Assembly: GCF_900104055.1 (NCBI RefSeq)
Contig: NZ_FNJQ01000030.1
Coordinates: forward strand, 1 to 37,124
DNA length: 37,124 bases
From: Pseudoselenomonas ruminantium
GTDB taxonomy: Bacteria; Bacillota; Negativicutes; Selenomonadales; Selenomonadaceae
Reading direction: 5' to 3'
Of this stretch, positions 12,122-25,537 are shown piece after piece. Each line of letters begins with the position of its first letter. Position 1 is the stretch's first letter. The notes below the pieces were generated by a model. The model worked only from the letters and a program-made list of their open reading frames with translations, was not told the origin of the DNA and ran no database searches. A program made the position numbers and the translations under genes.

Positions 12122-12197
12122 TGGTGGGCGATAACAGGATCGAACTGCTGACATCCTGCTTGTAAGGCAGGCGCTCTCCCAGCTGAGCTAATCGCCC
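12122..12197 (-). tRNA. tRNA-Val (UAC)
   Basis: A 76-nt cloverleaf with GGGCGAT acceptor, D arm GCTCAGCTGGGAGAGC, anticodon loop CTTACAA (anticodon TAC, codon GUA), T arm with GTTCGATCC, and encoded CCA. Last of three tRNAs in one operon. Confidence 0.96.
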
Positions 12198-12201
12198 GAA
12201 A

Positions 12202-12276
12202 TGGTGACGCGTATGGGATTCGAACCCATGAAGCCGCCGTGAAAGGGCGGTGTCTTAACCACTTGACCAACGCGCC
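12202..12276 (-). tRNA. tRNA-Glu (UUC)
   Basis: A 75-nt cloverleaf; acceptor GGCGCGT pairs with ACGCGTC, anticodon loop CTTTCAC (anticodon TTC, codon GAA), T loop GGTTCGAATCC, CCA encoded. Confidence 0.96.
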
Positions 12277-12277
12277 A

Positions 12278-12353
12278 TGGCTCCCCGAGCAGGATTCGAA
12301 CCTGCGACATATGGATTAACAGTCCACCGTTCTACCGGCTGAACTATCGGGGA
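12278..12353 (-). tRNA. tRNA-Asn (GUU)
   Basis: A 76-nt cloverleaf starting TCCCCGATAG, anticodon loop CTGTTAA (anticodon GTT, codon AAC), T loop GGTTCGAATCC, CCA encoded. First tRNA after the promoter. Confidence 0.96.
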
Positions 12354-17636: not shown

Positions 17637-18380
17637 TCAAGCAAATACGCCTGCTAAATACTCTTCCAGATTGGTCTTGATGGGCATCAAGTAGACATTG
17701 GCATCCTTCTTATCCGCCATTTCCATGACCTGACGGGAGAAATCCACGCTCCACTCCAGCGTGGGGTTAAAGCTCTTGGGGAAGATGACATTATTCTTGC
17801 GCTCCCAATAGCTCTGGGAAGCTGCCGTGACCACTGGCGAAACGCCCCAATACACATCGAGCCCATCGAGCATATCCATATAGATCTCCAGCAGCCGCAT
17901 ATCGAAAAACGGCTGCGTGAAGAATCCGGCGGCACCGGCCTGCACCTTGCGGCGGGTGCGGTAGACCTCATGGCGCATGGAACTCCTGTACTGGTCAATG
18001 CCCGCATAAACCTTGACCTCGGGCATTTCCTCCCGGAACTTGCGGATGACATCCGTGGATTCCGTAGGATAAACCTCATGCGTCATGCGCTGAGGTGGAT
18101 CGCCCTGCACCACCAATACTTCCTTGATGCCTTTTTCCCGCAGATAATCCTTCATGGGCAGCTCTTTGTCGAGGTCAATATCCATAGCGCGGATATGGGG
18201 CATGGACATGGCAAAATACTCCTGGGCAATGGCCGAACCTTCCCAGCTGCGGGTGTCAAACCGCAGTAAGTCAGGGATATTGATGACATCAATCTTGCCT
18301 TCATACTGCTTCAGGAGCTGTAATTCGCCGCGCAAAGTTTCCTCGTCACGGGGAATCAGCTCCACGGATACTCGTTTCAT
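17637..18380 (-). CDS. Methylenetetrahydrofolate reductase family protein
   Basis: A 247-residue MetF-like TIM-barrel protein. It has the strand start VSVELIPRDEETL, EVLVVQGDPP (the conserved GD segment near the flavin/folate site) and GAAGFFTQPFFD (family signature AGADFxxTQxFFD). It is about 40 residues shorter than typical MetF and lacks the usual N-terminal part, like the short MetF forms found with other electron carriers. Placement ahead of nfnAB suggests that it draws electrons from NADPH/ferredoxin pools; this is inference. A GGAGGC site precedes the ATG. Confidence 0.85.
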   Translation of the reverse strand: MKRVSVELIPRDEETLRGELQLLKQYEGKIDVINIPDLLRFDTRSWEGSAIAQEYFAMSMPHIRAMDIDLDKELPMKDYLREKGIKEVLVVQGDPPQRMTHEVYPTESTDVIRKFREEMPEVKVYAGIDQYRSSMRHEVYRTRRKVQAGAAGFFTQPFFDMRLLEIYMDMLDGLDVYWGVSPVVTAASQSYWERKNNVIFPKSFNPTLEWSVDFSRQVMEMADKKDANVYLMPIKTNLEEYLAGVFA

Positions 18381-18414
18381 AGGCTGCCTCCAGACTATCT
18401 GTTAATTTGTAAAG

Positions 18415-18443
18415 ATAATAAGCTACATGAATACTATTGTAAA
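18415..18443 (-). promoter_or_regulatory. Promoter of the metF-like/nfnAB operon
   Basis: TTTACA (18438-18443), 17 bp, TATTAT (18415-18420) on the minus strand, 35 bp upstream of the first start codon. Confidence 0.7.
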
Positions 18444-18539
18444 GTTTTTTTTATGAAAATGCAAGCTTGCCGCCTTTATTCTATGGAGGAAATTTCCTGC
18501 CCAAAGCGAATAAATACGTTAGCGATGGATTTAGTAAGG

Positions 18540-18845
18540 ACGAACTCATAAGTAGCCGATAATATCGACAAATCTACGTATAAGTGGACAAATATCTCAT
18601 TCGTAGATGCTTATGAGGCCGTTTCAAGCCCCAGTGACCGTGTTCAACGAAAGTTGTTTGCGAGATGAACTAAGTTATCAGGATAAGTTAAAGACTCACC
18701 TTCGGATGTAAACCATCAGTCCGTCGCTCTGAGAGTGCCAACCAAGAAACACCGCTAATGTCCTGCGGTGATAACAGGGAAACACATGAGCTTCCTGATG
18801 ACATGGGCAAGAAGGAAAATTCTCCAGAAATGGAAGGTGGCAGAG
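18540..18845 (+). ncRNA. HEARO-type omega RNA of IscB
   Basis: HEARO RNAs precede IscB-family genes and serve as guides. The segment contains stretches I recognise from this class: CAAGCCCCAGTGACCGTGTT, GTCGCTCTGAGAGTGCCAAC and AGAAACACCGCTAATGTCC ending in a GCGGT stem, then GGGAAACACATGAG and a CCAGAAATGG hairpin, running up to the iscB start. The hairpin ACCGC/GCGGT and the CTCTGAGAG loop are plain. In studied IscB systems the guide is at the 5' end, so it would lie left of about 18540; the 5' boundary is not clear. Confidence 0.8.
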
Positions 18846-20090
18846 ATGCCTACAATCAAGAAATATGCGTTCGTTCTGGACGCTGAAGGGAAACAACTTG
18901 ACCCCACAATCGAGCAGAACGCTTGGCGGCTTGTCCGCCAGCACAAAGCTCGATTGGTGTCAAAGTTTCCTATGGTAATTCAACTGAATAAAGTCGTAGA
19001 TACCCCTAACAGTGACATGGTTCACTGCGGCATTGACGATGGTGCAAATCATGTTGGGCTGGCTCTGGTTCAGAAATGCCAGACCAAGAACAAGGTTTTG
19101 TTCAAAGGCACTATCGAGCAACGAAAGGACGTTAAGCACCTGTTGGATGTTCGCCGTGGCTACCGCAGGTATCACAGATACCATAAGCAGTATCGCCCCG
19201 CAAAGTTTCTCAATCGTGCCTCTTCAAGACGTATTGGCAGGCTGATGCCTTCGATTATCCAGCGGAGACAAGCAGTTTTGCGGGTAATCGACAGGCTTCG
19301 CCAATGGGTTCACATTGACGGCTATTGGCTGGAGGACGTAAAAATCGACATTCGGGCATTGACTGATAACTACCAGCCTTATCGCTGGCAATACCAGAAG
19401 TCTAACCGTCTGGACAATAATCTTCGGCTGGCAGCTATTCATCGTGACGGATGTAAGTGTATGGAGTGTGGCAAGGAAAAGACACGCTTTGAGGTACATC
19501 ACATCACGCCACAGGAGGCTGGCGGGGCAGACACCATCAGCAACTTGATAACGCTTTGTCCTAAGTGTCATACCAGAACTTTTGGCAGAGAAGCTCAGTT
19601 TGCCGACAGATACTACGCCATGATTGGCTCTGCTGGTCATGTCGAAGGGCTTGATGATGCCCAGCGTGTCATGCAGGGTAAGCACTGGTTCAGAGAGCAG
19701 TTGCAACAGCGGGGTATGTTGAGGTTGACTACTGGCGGTGATACCGCCAACAAACGTGAGGACTGGAGCATTGTCAAGACTCACGCCAACGATGCAGTCT
19801 GCATAACCGATTTAGAGCCAGAGAACGTGGAAGTTGAAGAGTGGTGCATCAAGCCCATGCGTCGCAAGAGCAAGGCTGGCATCGATGAAGTTTGTGGTTT
19901 CCGTCATCGAGATTACGTGACCTACACATATCGCAATGGTGATACCCATACGGGCTATGTTACGGCGATGTATCCTGATAAGAGGCAGTTAAATTTTCAG
20001 TCTCCAACAAAACATTGCAAGCGTGTCCCAGCGTTAAAGGCACGGCTTTTATGGAGATATAATAGAATTTATTGGTTTAAATGTGCTTAG
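18846..20090 (+). CDS. iscB: RNA-guided HNH/RuvC nuclease IscB
   Basis: A 414-residue IscB, the Cas9 ancestor class. RuvC-I is CGIDDG (D64), then an Arg-rich bridge helix ([16 protein letters not shown], from residue 103), Ruv[11 protein letters not shown] (E163), an HNH domain (CMECGKEK, H218-H219, N233, CPKCH with H242) and Ruv[14 protein letters not shown] (H313, D316). All catalytic residues look intact. The N-terminal PLMP-like domain is degenerate (KQLDPT in place of PLMP). I set the start at ATG 18846 with GGAAGG 8 nt upstream; a GTG start 26 codons earlier falls inside the omega RNA. No transposase gene accompanies it. Confidence 0.9.
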
Positions 20091-20143
20091 GTAAACACCT
20101 TTGAGTATGTTTAACCATATTTTTAGGAGGAGGTCGGGAAATC

Positions 20144-22264
20144 ATGGGAAAACTCGATATTGCCAAAGGGCAGTTTCTCCATCGGAAAGGTGACGAGGTT
20201 AAGGATATCGCTATTGTCCTCAAGGGCAGCTTCACGCTGACAGCTAGTGACGACATTACACTGACGGCTGGCAACGGCGCCATTATCGGTGCCTTTTACT
20301 CAAGTGGCAGTGCCTATCACTATGATTACCGCGCTGAAGAGGACTGCACGCTCTTCGTCTACGATTACGCAGACGAAGATGACCTGGCAACCGCCATCAG
20401 TGCCACGCCGGCCATTGCTCCGGTAATGGCTTCGTCCAGCATTGCCCTCCTGAACAACATGGTCAATGTATTGGACAATCTCTACGAAAAAGCCCTCCAC
20501 CTCTGTGACAGCCTCAAGAGTGATTACAACGATTATAAGAAAGTCTGCACCACCTTAATGATTCCCCCCCAGCATTTCGATCATGTAAACCAGCTGCAGG
20601 CCCCCGATAAACCTGCAATGCTGACTGGCTGGCAAGCGGCCCTTTGCCGTACCTGTCATGAAAAGAATGACCTGTTGCGCAAGGAGTGCTACCCAGCAGA
20701 TATAAATTTCTGCATTGGCGCCGTCATGCTCTGCTCTACCCTTGCCCAACAGATACATCCCCAGCTAGATTTCATCACTGCCTTTATCCAGAATACGCTG
20801 GCTGCCGCCAATGATTTCACCAGCGAATACCGCACCCAGAAATCCAAGCTGGATGAAGCCCATCGTCAGGAAGCGCTGAAGGCTGGCAGTGGCAACATTC
20901 CCAAAATCACCAACGCCCTACATACGATTTTGGCCTTCGCCGGTATTGGCCGGGATATTGGCGATGCCTTAGAGAAGGATATCCGCCTCTTTATGAAAGC
21001 CCCGGATAAGACTGAAAAATCGACAGAAATGCGCCGGCTACGGACAGATATCAACAAGAACTTTTTCACCATCTATGAAGCCGCCTTTTTCCAAAGCCTC
21101 AACACCGAAAGCATTCCCCCTGAAGTCCGGATGTTCTTCCTGTTTGGCTTTATCGATGAGGAATTGGCCGGTGAGGAAAACACCGCCGCCCTCTATCACC
21201 ATGCCGTGCTTTGGGAAGATGACCCGCAAGGCATGGTCCTGCCTGTCTATGAATGGCTGAAAAAAATCTATCGTAGCGAAGTGCCGCCCTCTAAGGACGA
21301 ATTTGACAATGACTGGCCTGACCATCTGAAGGAAGAAGTACGTCAGGGCAATCTAAAACAGGCCGAGGCAGATGCCATGCTGAAAGATACCGCCGCCATG
21401 GCCCGCTTTGAACTCCATAATATGGTTGCAAATGCCAACAAGATGACCTATGGCAGCATCTTCTCCTACGTTCCGGCCTTCTATGCCCAGGCTCTGTCCC
21501 GCCCGCTGGATACCTGTCTGTCCACAGCAGCCAAAGTCACACATGCTCTCAATCATATCCGCGCCATCGACTACAGCTGCTTCTACCGGCCTGCTTATGC
21601 CACTTATCCCGAACTGAAGATCAATCGTTTTGACTACAACAAGGAAATCCTGCCCTATATCATCCTGATGCCCAACTATGGCAGCCGCGGTCTTATGTGG
21701 CAGGAAATCGAGGGGCGCGTACGCACAACACCATCCCATATGGTGCTCTCCATCTACCACTCCGAAGATTTGGAAACCACCCTGATCAAGATGTGCGCCC
21801 AGTTCCGCTGGGAAATGTGCAAACGCATCCAAGGCGTGCATTACAGCGATGTCACCGAACCATCCCTGACCGCCGAATACTGCAACTACCTGCAGTTCTA
21901 CAAGAAGAACTCCACGCTGTCTGCCGATATGAAGGAAAAAGTCAAAAGCGCGCTGAAACGTTATGGCAACAGCTACAGCAAGGTCTTCGCCGCCGAATAC
22001 GAGCAGTTCGTCAAGAACGAATCCGAAGGCCTGCCCCGCCTCAACAAAGTTGCCCGCGAAATTCTCTTTAAATACTGCACCTTCGGTCGCGACTATCGTG
22101 ACGCCCTCTCCATCAATCCCCAGTACAAACCCTTGATTGATCGCTGGAACATCACCCACGATGACAAAGTCCGCACCTTTGAACTATTCACCCGCAGGAT
22201 CCTCGGCCAAATAGCAGATTTGCCTGAGGAAATGAAAGTTGAAGAAGAATATTTGAAACTATAA
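20144..22264 (+). CDS. Large protein with cyclic-nucleotide-binding-like N-terminus
   Basis: 706 residues, preceded by a strong AGGAGGAGG site. Residues 1-95 look like a CAP/cNMP-binding beta barrel (KGQFLHRKGDEVKDIAIVLKGSF, then an ITLTAGNGAIIGAFY segment), but the usual phosphate-binding GExALL-RAA cassette is not evident. The rest is helical, with FxxxKxxLDEAHR-type segments, a DTCLSTAAKVTHALNH region and repeated aromatic-rich pieces; I recognise no catalytic motif, DNA-binding domain or membrane segment. It is not a CRP-type regulator, since no C-terminal helix-turn-helix is visible. A DUF-type family seems likely, function unknown. The codon use matches the core genes. Confidence 0.8.
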   Translation: MGKLDIAKGQFLHRKGDEVKDIAIVLKGSFTLTASDDITLTAGNGAIIGAFYSSGSAYHYDYRAEEDCTLFVYDYADEDDLATAISATPAIAPVMASSSIALLNNMVNVLDNLYEKALHLCDSLKSDYNDYKKVCTTLMIPPQHFDHVNQLQAPDKPAMLTGWQAALCRTCHEKNDLLRKECYPADINFCIGAVMLCSTLAQQIHPQLDFITAFIQNTLAAANDFTSEYRTQKSKLDEAHRQEALKAGSGNIPKITNALHTILAFAGIGRDIGDALEKDIRLFMKAPDKTEKSTEMRRLRTDINKNFFTIYEAAFFQSLNTESIPPEVRMFFLFGFIDEELAGEENTAALYHHAVLWEDDPQGMVLPVYEWLKKIYRSEVPPSKDEFDNDWPDHLKEEVRQGNLKQAEADAMLKDTAAMARFELHNMVANANKMTYGSIFSYVPAFYAQALSRPLDTCLSTAAKVTHALNHIRAIDYSCFYRPAYATYPELKINRFDYNKEILPYIILMPNYGSRGLMWQEIEGRVRTTPSHMVLSIYHSEDLETTLIKMCAQFRWEMCKRIQGVHYSDVTEPSLTAEYCNYLQFYKKNSTLSADMKEKVKSALKRYGNSYSKVFAAEYEQFVKNESEGLPRLNKVAREILFKYCTFGRDYRDALSINPQYKPLIDRWNITHDDKVRTFELFTRRILGQIADLPEEMKVEEEYLKL

Positions 22265-22375: not shown

Positions 22376-22978
22376 ATGGCACCGCCTACCCGTTTTGTTC
22401 CCGAACATATCCAAAACCTTTTCGCCTGGTATCGGCAGGCAAAACTCCATCCGCTAATCAAAAGTGCCATATTCCATTACGAATTTGAGTTTATCCATCC
22501 TTTCGCGGACGGCAATGGCCGCATGGGACGGATGTGGCACAGCCTTCTACTGGGACAATGGAAGGAAATGTTCTTATGGCTGCCGATTGAAAAATTGATT
22601 CAATCGCGGCAAAAGGAATATTATGCGACACTCGGCATTGCAGATAAAAAAGCAGATTGCGCAGAATTTGTAGAGCTTATGTTGGAAATTATCCGTGACA
22701 GTCTCAACGATTTAGCCCTTGAACAGTCGAACACCGACCAAGTAAGCGACCAAGATACCGACCAGGTAAGCGACCAAGATAACTCACCTACCGAAAGACT
22801 ACTCTCCGTTCTTGGTGATAAGGAACTTTCAGCTACCGAAATCATGGAACGGCTTGGACTTTCCCATCGTCCCACTTTCCGCAAGAACTATTTGACTCCA
22901 GCTCTAGAGAAAAAATTGATAGAACGCACCATTCTCGATAAGCCGAACAGTAAAAATCAAAAATATCGAAAATGCTAA
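22376..22978 (+). pseudogene. Fic family protein, 5'-truncated
   Basis: The 200-codon frame starts abruptly in the middle of a Fic domain: only about 40 residues precede HPFADGNGRMGR, the AMPylation loop, where intact Fic proteins of this class have about 150-200 including an inhibitory helix. The C-terminal half keeps a linker with two TDQVSDQD-type repeats and a winged helix (ELSATEIMERLGLSHRPTFRKNYL). An in-frame stop lies about 18 codons upstream, so the N-terminus is truly lost. Fic enzymes transfer AMP to target proteins; this copy is probably inactive or a remnant. Confidence 0.75.
22733..22780 (+). repeat. Two 24-bp tandem repeats in the Fic fragment
   Basis: Units at 22733-22756 and 22757-22780 differ at one base and encode the acidic linker TDQVSDQD twice. 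Such linkers are common in Fic proteins. Confidence 0.85.
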
Positions 22979-22993
22979 AACAGCCGGCTGTTA

Positions 22994-25537
22994 CTATGCA
23001 GGCTCCCCACGTTTCAGCATTTGCGCAATGCGTTCTTTTTCTTCACTACCATTAGTTTTCAATCGAATAAATGGCAGTTGATATTTTGCCAATATGCTAT
23101 TTTTCAATTTGTCACGTTCCGCCTGTTTGCTTCCCTCTTGATGATAAGCTACTCCATCTACCTCAATTAACAAAACCGGCAACTTACTCAACTTATTTAC
23201 AATCACGAAATCAATATGTGTCAAGGGATTAGTCGCATATTTTATTTCTTTATCATTAAGTAAGTCAAAGTCACTAATCAGCATATTCATTGGCAAATGA
23301 CAAACAACTTCTAATGATGAAAATTCATCTTTCGATAAAATTTCCAGCAAAGCATCATACATAATACATTCCGAAGGATATTCAGATATATCCTTGTGCT
23401 TTTTTAGAAGTTCTTGACGCTGTTTCGTATATTGACTATACAAGCAGTCAAATATAGAACTAATTTTACTTTCGCTCACTTCAAAGTTATTATATCTAAT
23501 ATATGAAATCAAATCATTAATATTACCATTTTTATTATGTTTATTGCCATTTGTAACCAAGCATAATCTTTTTTTCGCTCTTGATACGGCTACATTAAGC
23601 ATATTAGCATTATCCACAAAATCAGTAATTTGATTATCCACCGTTGATATTATGATAAAATCTTTCTCTCGTCCTTGAAACTTGTGAACTGTATCTATCT
23701 CCACATTATTTATTTGTTTTTGCATTGCGTCCACTTGATTACGATATGGACTTATAATCCCTACACCTTCTATTACAGGTTCATTGTACAATATATCATT
23801 AAGTATCACATCAATTTCACGTTGATTATACCTCCCCCTGCAATGATTCCCCTCTCTTGTCATTATCACCTTTAAGACATTATCTTCACCATCATCCTGC
23901 GTCATAATCGCTAATTCATCATGATAAAATTTTTTATTGCAAAATTCAATAATACGAGGATGACAGCGATAGTGTTCTTTTAACAGCACACATCTTTCTG
24001 GTGATAATTGCATCTTTACAGACTGTAAAAAGCTATGTGTATATCTAAAGCACTCTTTAACTAAAGCCTCTTGAAAAATTTTCTCTGTTTCCTTTTTCAT
24101 GCTACTATCCACAACATTGGGTAATTGTTTTGAATCGCCTACAATAACGGCATTCTTAGCATGAAACAAGGATAATGCTCCTGTTACCACATCAACCTGT
24201 GAAGCTTCATCCATGATAACGTAGTCATACATAGTGTCTGTGCCCAAACAAGACAAGGCAGAAAACGTCGTGCTCAAAACAATCGGATATTCATTCAAGA
24301 AATCTCCCGCTTTACTTTGCAGTTCACCAGCACTAAATACAGTGCGTTCCTTTTTTCCAGCATATTTATGCCATACTGTCTCCTTCAATATATCCAGTGA
24401 CTCATCACACATCTTTTGCAACAAATCGCTTTCTCTAGTATCTAAAAAATGGACTAATTTTTCTTTCCGTTTCTCTAACTCTTTTTTCCGCATTTCATAG
24501 AATTTGTTTTGCAACGACGCAATAACCGACTGAACATTTTGTTTCCAAAAATTTAAGCTCATCACCCCATATTTCAAGGCACAAAAGCTACAAAACAAAA
24601 CATACTTCCATTTCTTATTACCATCAAATGATTGGTATTCATCCAATAATCTCAATATCCTTTTTGAAGATAAAGGCAAAATACTAGAAAATTTCTTTAT
24701 TTCAATACTATTATCATTTAGGTAACTTTCAAAATATTTCCTTTCCGTTTGCAATGATTTCAAATCTAATTCTATCTTTGCCAGTTCTACCTGTGCCGAA
24801 AATATTTCACGTAATTCTACAATCTTATGATTAACAGACTTCTTTAACGCTGATATATCTCCCACATAATGCCAGTCCAATATCTCCGTCGGATATTTAC
24901 CATTCTGTGAATTAACAAAAAATTCCTTATTATCCTTCTTGCCAAGAACAGCCGCCATGAAGTTCATATTATTACATTTCAGCTTATCGTATACATTATC
25001 AATTGCCGAATTATTATATGACACCACTTGTACTGTTTTCCCCTGTTTTATAATATTCGCGATTATATTTAATATAGTTTGTGTCTTACCAGTACCTGGT
25101 GGCCCTTCTATGATACTCACTTGATACTTGAAAGCGTTTTTAACAGCCTCTATTTGACTGTTATTAGCCCCAAAAGGAAATATATAATCATCAGATGTTA
25201 TATTAATAGCAGCATTTATCGAAGTATTTAGATAACTCTTTAACACACTTCCTTCTAATACATATCGTATACTCTTATATTTTTTTAATAATAAGTTCCC
25301 ATCATTTTTATCCTTTAATGGATTTAACTCTGCAATTTTCTTTAGATAAGTAAAAACATTATCATCTTTTACATTATTACTAAATATACGTACCCTATTC
25401 GTTTTAATACTGTATTTGTATATTTTGTCATTGTTAATAAATTTTATATAATAAAAACCACCACGTTTATCACAAGCCGTTATCATTCTTGTTTTATCAA
25501 TACCATCAATAATAATACTAACATTATTCAAATCCAT
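22994..25537 (-). CDS. SF1 helicase with C-terminal PD-(D/E)XK-like nuclease
   Basis: 847 residues. Helicase motifs of the Upf1/DNA2-like branch are: Walker A GPPGTGKT (145-152), motif II DEAS (443-446), motif III GDSKQLP (467-473), motif IV region HYRCHP (522-527), VHKFQGREKD (617-626) and VAVSRAKKR (649-657). The segment 240-410 is a coiled-coil-like insert. Residues 720-847 form a DUF2726/Vsr-like nuclease candidate: D776 (HIDFVIV), E792 (LIEVDG), K811/K813. The gene is markedly AT-rich and lacks a strong ribosome binding site, both signs of transfer. Similar fusions occur among defence-island genes, but this one has no recognised partner nearby, so a defence role is inference. Confidence 0.85.
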   Translation of the reverse strand: MDLNNVSIIIDGIDKTRMITACDKRGGFYYIKFINNDKIYKYSIKTNRVRIFSNNVKDDNVFTYLKKIAELNPLKDKNDGNLLLKKYKSIRYVLEGSVLKSYLNTSINAAINITSDDYIFPFGANNSQIEAVKNAFKYQVSIIEGPPGTGKTQTILNIIANIIKQGKTVQVVSYNNSAIDNVYDKLKCNNMNFMAAVLGKKDNKEFFVNSQNGKYPTEILDWHYVGDISALKKSVNHKIVELREIFSAQVELAKIELDLKSLQTERKYFESYLNDNSIEIKKFSSILPLSSKRILRLLDEYQSFDGNKKWKYVLFCSFCALKYGVMSLNFWKQNVQSVIASLQNKFYEMRKKELEKRKEKLVHFLDTRESDLLQKMCDESLDILKETVWHKYAGKKERTVFSAGELQSKAGDFLNEYPIVLSTTFSALSCLGTDTMYDYVIMDEASQVDVVTGALSLFHAKNAVIVGDSKQLPNVVDSSMKKETEKIFQEALVKECFRYTHSFLQSVKMQLSPERCVLLKEHYRCHPRIIEFCNKKFYHDELAIMTQDDGEDNVLKVIMTREGNHCRGRYNQREIDVILNDILYNEPVIEGVGIISPYRNQVDAMQKQINNVEIDTVHKFQGREKDFIIISTVDNQITDFVDNANMLNVAVSRAKKRLCLVTNGNKHNKNGNINDLISYIRYNNFEVSESKISSIFDCLYSQYTKQRQELLKKHKDISEYPSECIMYDALLEILSKDEFSSLEVVCHLPMNMLISDFDLLNDKEIKYATNPLTHIDFVIVNKLSKLPVLLIEVDGVAYHQEGSKQAERDKLKNSILAKYQLPFIRLKTNGSEEKERIAQMLKRGEPA

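Follow-up and report, generated by a model that had tools for sequence, protein, structure and literature searches.

A probable mobile IscB/omega-RNA element of Pseudoselenomonas ruminantium that enters Shine-Dalgarno sites and rebuilds them

IscB is related to the ancestor of Cas9, and the element that encodes it does not contain the guide, which leaves open how such a guide comes to be transcribed and how the site of insertion is chosen. This question is raised by a locus in a stretch of 37,124 nucleotides from Pseudoselenomonas ruminantium (NCBI RefSeq assembly GCF_900104055.1, contig NZ_FNJQ01000030.1, positions 1 to 37,124, forward strand; hereafter the window, meaning the whole stretch), where an initial annotation made from the letters alone had noted an IscB with a HEARO omega RNA at 18540–20090. 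Comparison of related loci delimits a mobile element of 1,591 bp (18540–20130), made up of an omega RNA and an intact IscB, and the best explanation of what we see, which we consider probable, is that it belongs to a clade of mobile IscB/omega-RNA elements that insert inside Shine-Dalgarno (SD) sequences. The span first noted began correctly at the element's left end and stopped at the iscB stop codon, about 40 nt short of the element's right end near 20130. The features on which the argument draws are as follows (L, G and C numbers are our handles for loci, genomes and contigs).

18540..20130, + strand: whole mobile element, ACGAAC...TTTTTAGGAGG, without target duplication (left end from the alignment of relatives; right end from the alignment and empty sites)
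18519..18539, + strand: putative guide, the host 5′ leader abutting the element's left end and ending in AAGG, the left half of the split SD (direct sequence; empty site in L082 and L078; guide role suggested by IscB/IsrB biology)
18540..18836, + strand: omega RNA scaffold, divergent and HEARO-like (match to clade model R1; covariation; RF02033 at 28.2 bits, below gathering)
18846..20090, + strand: iscB, 414 aa, a RuvC–bridge helix–HNH nuclease (profile matches, structure relatives, residue alignment)
20120..20130, + strand: right terminus TTTTTAGGAGG, the element-borne half that rebuilds the SD (fixed-length TTTTTARRRGG in L001–L005)
20125..20133, + strand: rebuilt SD AGGAGGAGG of the downstream gene (direct sequence)
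20131..20133, + strand: AGG, right part of the original SD and predicted target-adjacent motif (TAM) of the guide in the empty site (L082 empty site TAAGGAGGTC)
20144..22264, + strand: host gene behind the rebuilt SD, outside the element, for a 706-aa protein with an N-terminal cyclic-nucleotide-binding domain (Pfam PF00027; orthologues)
17637..18380, − strand: divergent MetF-like host gene, outside the element (Pfam MTHFR)

The right end of the window element is certain to about 3 nt. Across the clade the termini run from ACGAAC to ..TTTTTARRRGG, with two phage copies ending in ..TTTTAARAAGG.

Five pairs of occupied and empty sites show where such elements enter: the break (^) always falls after GG inside an SD (GG^AGG, GG^AGA or GG^GGA), and four of the five pairs are free of target duplication. 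In L082 and L078, which are diverged relatives of the window locus, the metF start and the cyclic-nucleotide-binding-domain gene adjoin without the element; the empty site of L082 reads AATAAGGAGGTCAGG, and the window reads TAAGG/ACGAAC at its left junction and TTTTTAGGAGG/AGGTCGGG at its right (a slash marking the junction), which gives an empty-site form of ..GGATTTAGTAAGG^AGGTCGGG. L005 (left ATATACTGGGG/ACGAAC, right TTTTTAGAAGG/AGGAAATC) is paired with the empty sites L172–L174 (ATATACTGGGGAGGAAATC), and L128 (left GGTTAAGG/ACGAAC, right TTTTTAGAAGG/AGGTGTAAC) with L152 and L153 (ACAGGTTAAGGAGGTGTAAC). The two remaining pairs come from phages, with L038 (left CAGTAAGG/ACTTAC, right TTTTAAAAAGG/GGATACTTG) set against the empty L045 and L046 (CAGTAAGGGGATACTTG) and L039 (left TATAAAGG/ACTTAC, right TTTTAAGAAGG/AGGAGAAAAG) against the empty L043 and L044 (CCTATAAAGGAGAAAAG). 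As the empty target of L005 had GGGG, the AAGG at the right end of that copy is the element's own; judged from these junctions, the element's own end rebuilds the SD and in L005 even strengthens it.

The same address recurs across the clade. The right side can be read in 40 loci, and in 29 of them a co-oriented gene begins 38–62 nt past the iscB stop with a start codon supported by an SD, as against 6 of 188 other open-frame ends in the same loci (6 of 202 when duplicate loci are included), the control frames being same-strand open frames of at least 60 codons rather than verified genes. For this count 41 loci were compared, of which L008 has no right end, and L070 and L071 were dropped as duplicates of L034; the loci are related, so that the 29 are not fully independent events. 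Counts of GG at positions −2 and −1 and of purines at +1 to +3 are partly circular, since the search patterns required them, and the SD claim rests on the downstream starts and the empty sites. The genes downstream are diverse and include those for a ketopantoate reductase, an outer membrane efflux protein, a nitroreductase, a UVR-motif protein and menaquinone biosynthesis, two without a Pfam match and, in one phage, a PhoH-related gene. More distant IscBs (L009–L015, 28–35% identity) were tried as a control for the SD association and set aside, as their right ends are ill-defined; by eye only L015 has an SD and a start soon after iscB, and no rate was drawn. The initial annotation was right that the position makes the guide of interest; the reason differs from the one it gave, the position being the SD of the downstream gene, as in most of the clade.

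Copies 86–90% identical to that of the window occur in other genomes between unrelated flanks, and protein and DNA searches found no second copy in its own genome. Herelleviridae phages of Staphylococcus carry copies that are 46–51% identical, present in some genomes and missing from the same site in close relatives, and a scan of viral contigs added 18 loci at 47–64% identity. The RNA also occurs without iscB, in L127 (G152:C63) before a SecG gene and in L128 (G146:C23) before a ribosomal L28 gene; these two share a short filler in place of iscB and have similar right ends, both ending in an SD. In genome G146 the copy without the open reading frame (ORF), L128, is accompanied by L004, whose full iscB could act in trans.

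Several other copies depart from the full form. L126 (G186:C131) is a truncated omega RNA that runs straight into the SD of a ribosomal L34 gene, and two contig ends of the same genome bear the last 25 codons of an iscB (L018). L035 (Ectobacillus panaciterrae) has an internal deletion, with iscB residues 7–95 followed by 364–411, and L033 (Eubacterium sp. MSJ-13, in-frame stop) and L034 (a Selenomonas metagenome-assembled genome, frameshift) have a broken iscB that still stands at an SD. In the Silviavirus phage loci L040 and L041 the element has entered a RusA resolvase gene within its first codons. Its right end supplies an SD and an ATG together with a near repeat of the target; a synonymous change in this repeat, AGT to TCG, might spare it from the element's own guide. 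In a sister clade (L072, L075 and L076 in G552; L074 in G690) the order after iscB is an SD-like stretch, a long hairpin, AGG and then the start codon of the host gene, as though SD and start codon were joined by the hairpin. The sequence AAGGAGCTAYGAA is found to the left of L073, L074 and L035.

The omega RNA was examined in an alignment (A3) of 20 relatives, the window among them, that spans each element from its first base up to the start of iscB. These were 20 of 28 stretches, L038, L039, L042, L050, L059 and L062 having been omitted as shorter or divergent and L070 and L071 as duplicates. The consensus structure has 71 pairs, with 97.5% of 1410 cells paired against 81.9 ± 0.7% in shuffled alignments and 33.5–45% in slid versions, the last comparison favouring the structure because it was derived from the same alignment. 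Compensatory changes on both sides are seen in 45 of the 71 pairs (27.0 ± 2.4 in shuffles), and none of 500 shuffles reached any of the five covariation measures observed. The window RNA folded alone gives z = −2.41. A clade model (R1), built from the A3 relatives with the window among them, matches 18540–18836 and detects 12 copies in 9 of 189 family genomes.

The initial annotation had called this RNA a HEARO omega RNA and had named a HEARO covariance search as a test of that call. At the Rfam gathering threshold (83 bits) HEARO is unmatched in the window and in all 11 relatives searched, and a laxer search over 2 kb aligns the full RF02033 model weakly to 18587–18822, in the right place and on the right strand (28.2 bits, E 0.0021). 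The call therefore holds for a covarying structured RNA at 18540–18836 and fails at the family threshold, by which the RNA is no member of Rfam HEARO, though alike in form. The model does align weakly over its full length and the clade has a structure of its own, so we take the missing gathering-level match to reflect divergence from the Rfam model. At the element end, the 5′ arm that covaries starts 47 nt ahead of the Rfam match, and the element's first base pairs with column 98, within helix 1; it follows that the scaffold begins at the element end and that any guide is host sequence to its left.

In its own genome the 21-nt window guide is unique to its own locus, at up to three mismatches. 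A role as an anti-phage spacer was considered and rejected: the 16-mer has 21 exact matches in the viral contigs (viral_contigs), none of them followed by AGG, AGA, GAG or GGA, and two precede other purine triplets (AAG in L142, AAA in L144). These viral matches are read as chance, without a computed expectation. For L128, an exact match to the final 16 nt of the guide with AGG directly behind it is present in 4 of 18 other loci of the L28 gene in the genus (L152, L153, L154 and L161); for L005, the corresponding 16 nt and AGG are present in 3 of 11 other loci examined (L172–L174; 24 were fetched, L005's own included). The triplet after the guide is AGG, AGA or GGA in empty alleles and ACG or ACT in occupied ones. 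A purine-rich TAM would be in character for the family, since OgeuIscB needs NNRR, with purines at positions 3 and 4 (PMC9640706; this and the other PMC sources are cited from excerpts), and OrufIscB is likewise described with NTAAA (PMC13180657).

A guide that lies outside the element, to its left, can be transcribed only from a host promoter. An SD is the sign of a co-oriented leader that follows a promoter or lies within an operon. Of 13 chromosomal copies, 9 have a −10-like hexamer 12–75 nt ahead of the element, where 3.5 are expected (2000 mononucleotide shuffles, of which a fraction of 0.0015 score at least as high). No terminator-like site was found in 18380–20200 (1.4 expected by chance), so that read-through into the host gene is possible.

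The iscB frame is open from 18768 (GTG), with a likely start at the ATG at 18846 behind GGAAGGTGG and a stop at 20090, and matches the NCBIfam equivalog guided_IscB (NF040563; 267.7 bits, cut-off 175), the Pfam RRXRR family of the arginine-rich bridge helix (PF14239; 144.4 bits, gathering 25) and Pfam HNH (54.1 bits, above gathering). As the initial annotation had held, the catalytic residues are intact: RuvC D64, E163, H313 and D316 and HNH H218, H219, N233 and H242 are all found and are invariant across a nine-sequence alignment, the reference RuvC residues of OgeuIscB being D61, E193, H340 and D343 (PMC9640706). Across the 41 loci, window included, the RuvC residues are conserved in 40/40, 38/38, 38/38 and 38/38 readable copies respectively, and the HNH residues in all readable copies with the sole exception of L061, which has Leu for H242. 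The ratio of nonsynonymous to synonymous substitution (dN/dS) between the window copy and L002–L005 (86–88% relatives) is 0.044–0.051; among the eight pairs computed, the closest (L003/L004, synonymous divergence dS 0.05) gives 0.25 and the others 0.038–0.082, values from which we conclude that the protein is maintained by strong purifying selection.

The N-terminus had been described as a degenerate PLMP motif (KQLDPT). The site reads QLDPT in the window and literal PLMP was not matched, yet among 40 readable copies of the 41 loci P20-T21 is kept in 40 and L18 in 39 (F in L005); the third position is D, S or A in 39 (T in L035) and the first is variable, and HfmIscB, whose structure is solved, carries PLAPT. 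With the L and the P-T kept across related copies, we read the motif as a variant proper to the clade rather than as decay. By the features compared the window system is an IscB, for which RNA-guided cleavage is predicted, and the suggestion that it could be an active RNA-guided nuclease gains support from the intact residues, purifying selection, the covarying omega RNA and mobile relatives.

These comparisons show the element with its ends, its entry into SDs and their rebuilding, the structure of the RNA, and purifying selection on the RNA as well as on the nuclease; from them we infer host-driven transcription, a TAM, cutting and homing, in the following scheme. The element enters an SD after GG, its own right end restores a full SD before the host start codon, and the scaffold, starting at the element's first base, has the host 5′ leader fused to it as putative guide. 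A host promoter would then transcribe guide, RNA, iscB and host gene together, and the need for a co-oriented leader is explained by a guide that cannot be transcribed from inside the element. In an empty allele the RGR after the guide would serve as TAM; in an occupied one ACG or ACT stands there instead, and the resident copy would be spared. IscB would cut empty alleles and repair would copy the element back or across, a retention or homing step modelled on work on TnpB (PMC11870625). The element seems built to land where harm is small and transcription of the guide is likely.

A number of observations weigh against this account. Eleven of the 40 loci (L035, L040, L041, L042, L063, L064, L065, L072, L074, L075 and L076) miss the spacing of the downstream start; L035 has its internal deletion, L040 and L041 lie inside the RusA gene start, L042 is truncated, and L063 has an SD with the start only 23 nt after the iscB stop. 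Two empty-site pairs are imperfect, as the match of L038 (phage Golestan101-M) to the empty phages ends at ATGGCA, its PhoH-related gene differing from the third codon on, and the right junction of L039 has three extra bases, AGG. Because an NNRR motif would also admit the internal ACGA, the sparing of resident copies requires a TAM in this clade other than that of OgeuIscB. The window copy is not among the nine chromosomal copies with a −10-like hexamer, its + strand has no strict sigma-70 match, and phage copies show no excess of the hexamer (8 of 16, 7.0 expected). Finally, the window element contains no transposase, iscB being its only long + strand ORF.

The last point leads to the most serious of the other readings, that an IS200/IS605-type TnpA acting in trans moves the element, inserting it after RRGG without duplication, and that IscB only guards it against loss; we hold this to be plausible, at somewhat less than an even chance. 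Insertion free of duplication together with a terminus that resembles the cleavage site is the mark of an IS200/IS605-type mechanism, a likeness and not a proof, and the clade offers both, in the four of five pairs lacking duplication and in the similarity between RRRGG at the right terminus and RRGG at the left cleavage site. Y1 transposases, moreover, occur in 11 of the 20 genomes searched, the window's own included, and in 6 of the 8 element-bearing ones among them. Set against this, none was found in the element-bearing G155 and G172 (draft genomes, in which absence is weak evidence; phage genomes were outside the search), and the resident IS605 copies that were compared differ in ends and target, for which reason they were rejected as mobiliser; both points also count against the scheme above. 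L098 (G000:C35) and its relatives form an IS605-type element with TnpA in the same genome, with a left-end hairpin (AAACCCTAGCTT..GGGG) unlike the IscB element.

It might also be that elements enter many purine-rich sites and that only SD insertions survive, because the others break genes. An insertion into an SD is almost silent and would be favoured, and L005 entered GGGG^AGG rather than AAGG^AGG, so that recognition on the left is not strict; intergenic regions should, however, offer other silent sites, yet 29 of 40 copies stand at one spacing against 6 of 188 controls and all five empty sites break after GG inside an SD, which leaves survivorship unlikely in our view. Domestication of the window copy, whose guide RNA or nuclease would then regulate the downstream cyclic-nucleotide-binding-domain gene or metF, would fit a single genome copy in the leader of a conserved gene with a guide that matches its own locus only. 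A left flank of host leader is, however, expected of any insertion, related copies stand at unrelated genes, and the element precedes the orthologue in none of 19 genus relatives (upstream 75 nt; L097, the second half of a split gene, not counted), and we give domestication very little credence. The idea of a degenerate, inactive relic can point to a HEARO score below gathering, the changed PLMP motif and the broken relatives L034, L035 and L033; it is the hardest to credit of these readings and already largely refuted by the dN/dS of the window copy against L002–L005, its intact catalytic residues and the covarying RNA. Insertion of a mobile IscB/omega-RNA element inside SDs remains the reading we prefer.

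The downstream 706-aa gene, described at first as an orphan, has orthologues in 20 of 22 genus genomes, its own included. Further along the window, 22376–25537 holds a gene for a 200-aa Fic-domain protein, which matches only positions 36–93 of the Fic model, and on the opposite strand one for an 847-aa SF1 helicase with DUF2726 and partial, sub-cut-off matches to anti-phage helicase models; three consecutive tRNA genes lie at 12125–12353 on the minus strand.

Among known systems the closest solved relative is HfmIscB (PDB 9k2z), of the same clade, aligned over residues 6–412 with E 3.3e-168 and with PLAPT for PLMP; its chain has Ala at the window's first HNH His, as read from the alignment. 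OgeuIscB and other IscB/omega-RNA systems share RuvC, bridge helix, HNH, an upstream structured RNA with a 5′ guide and a purine-rich TAM, although OgeuIscB is a much weaker match (7xht, E 2.8e-17, two stretches) and the window's PLMP is changed. Classical HEARO elements are reportedly found next to ATGA or GTGA. In TnpB systems the guide lies at the opposite end of the element. The excerpted gene-drive or retention model for TnpB resembles ours in that the element is kept or spread through RNA-guided cuts at the empty site and the TAM is the insertion motif, and differs in having TnpA in the elements; the excerpt makes no mention of SD targeting (PMC11870625). DtIsrB of Desulfovirgula has the same order of guide, omega RNA and nuclease with a TAM 3′ of the target, but, unlike the window IscB, it is an IsrB without HNH and has the TAM NTGA (PMC9581776); the SD named in the excerpt of that structure paper is the one of IsrB itself. 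IStrons likewise combine a mobile element with a device that makes insertion harmless, splicing out of RNA where the end of the window element rebuilds the SD instead (PMC4227781). Duplication-free insertion (four of five pairs) is shared with IS200/IS605 elements, whose Y1 TnpA inside the element is not met here, and few HEARO nucleases are said to lie near TnpA in the excerpt consulted (PMC9755519). No report of IscB insertion at an SD, or of an SD as TAM, was among the literature matches listed. What is new here is the use of the SD as address and its restoration by the element, although novelty in print is not established, the main IscB/HEARO papers lying outside the literature search.

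A clade whose insertions fall mostly in SDs and rebuild them would answer both halves of the question with which we began, and the SD address predicts that the TAM is RGR, the guide the host leader and the promoter the host's. The element, or its RNA alone, is tolerated in the leaders of ribosomal L28, ribosomal L34 and SecG genes. In a bolder form, which we think distinctly doubtful, the SD would be a three-way address for this IscB clade, at once insertion target, TAM and guarantee of transcription, with transposase-free insertion and homing across species. Were that true, every guide would end in RRGG and every SD would supply AGG, giving a short seed and TAM match at SDs genome-wide; a new insertion could do without a transposase and begin with a cut made by IscB at an SD, repaired through the RRGG ends held in common; and a single guide could home from species to species through conserved leaders, that of rpmB for example, with ORF-less copies carried along in trans. 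If the predicted TAM holds, these compact nucleases of 414 aa would cut naturally beside ribosome-binding sites.
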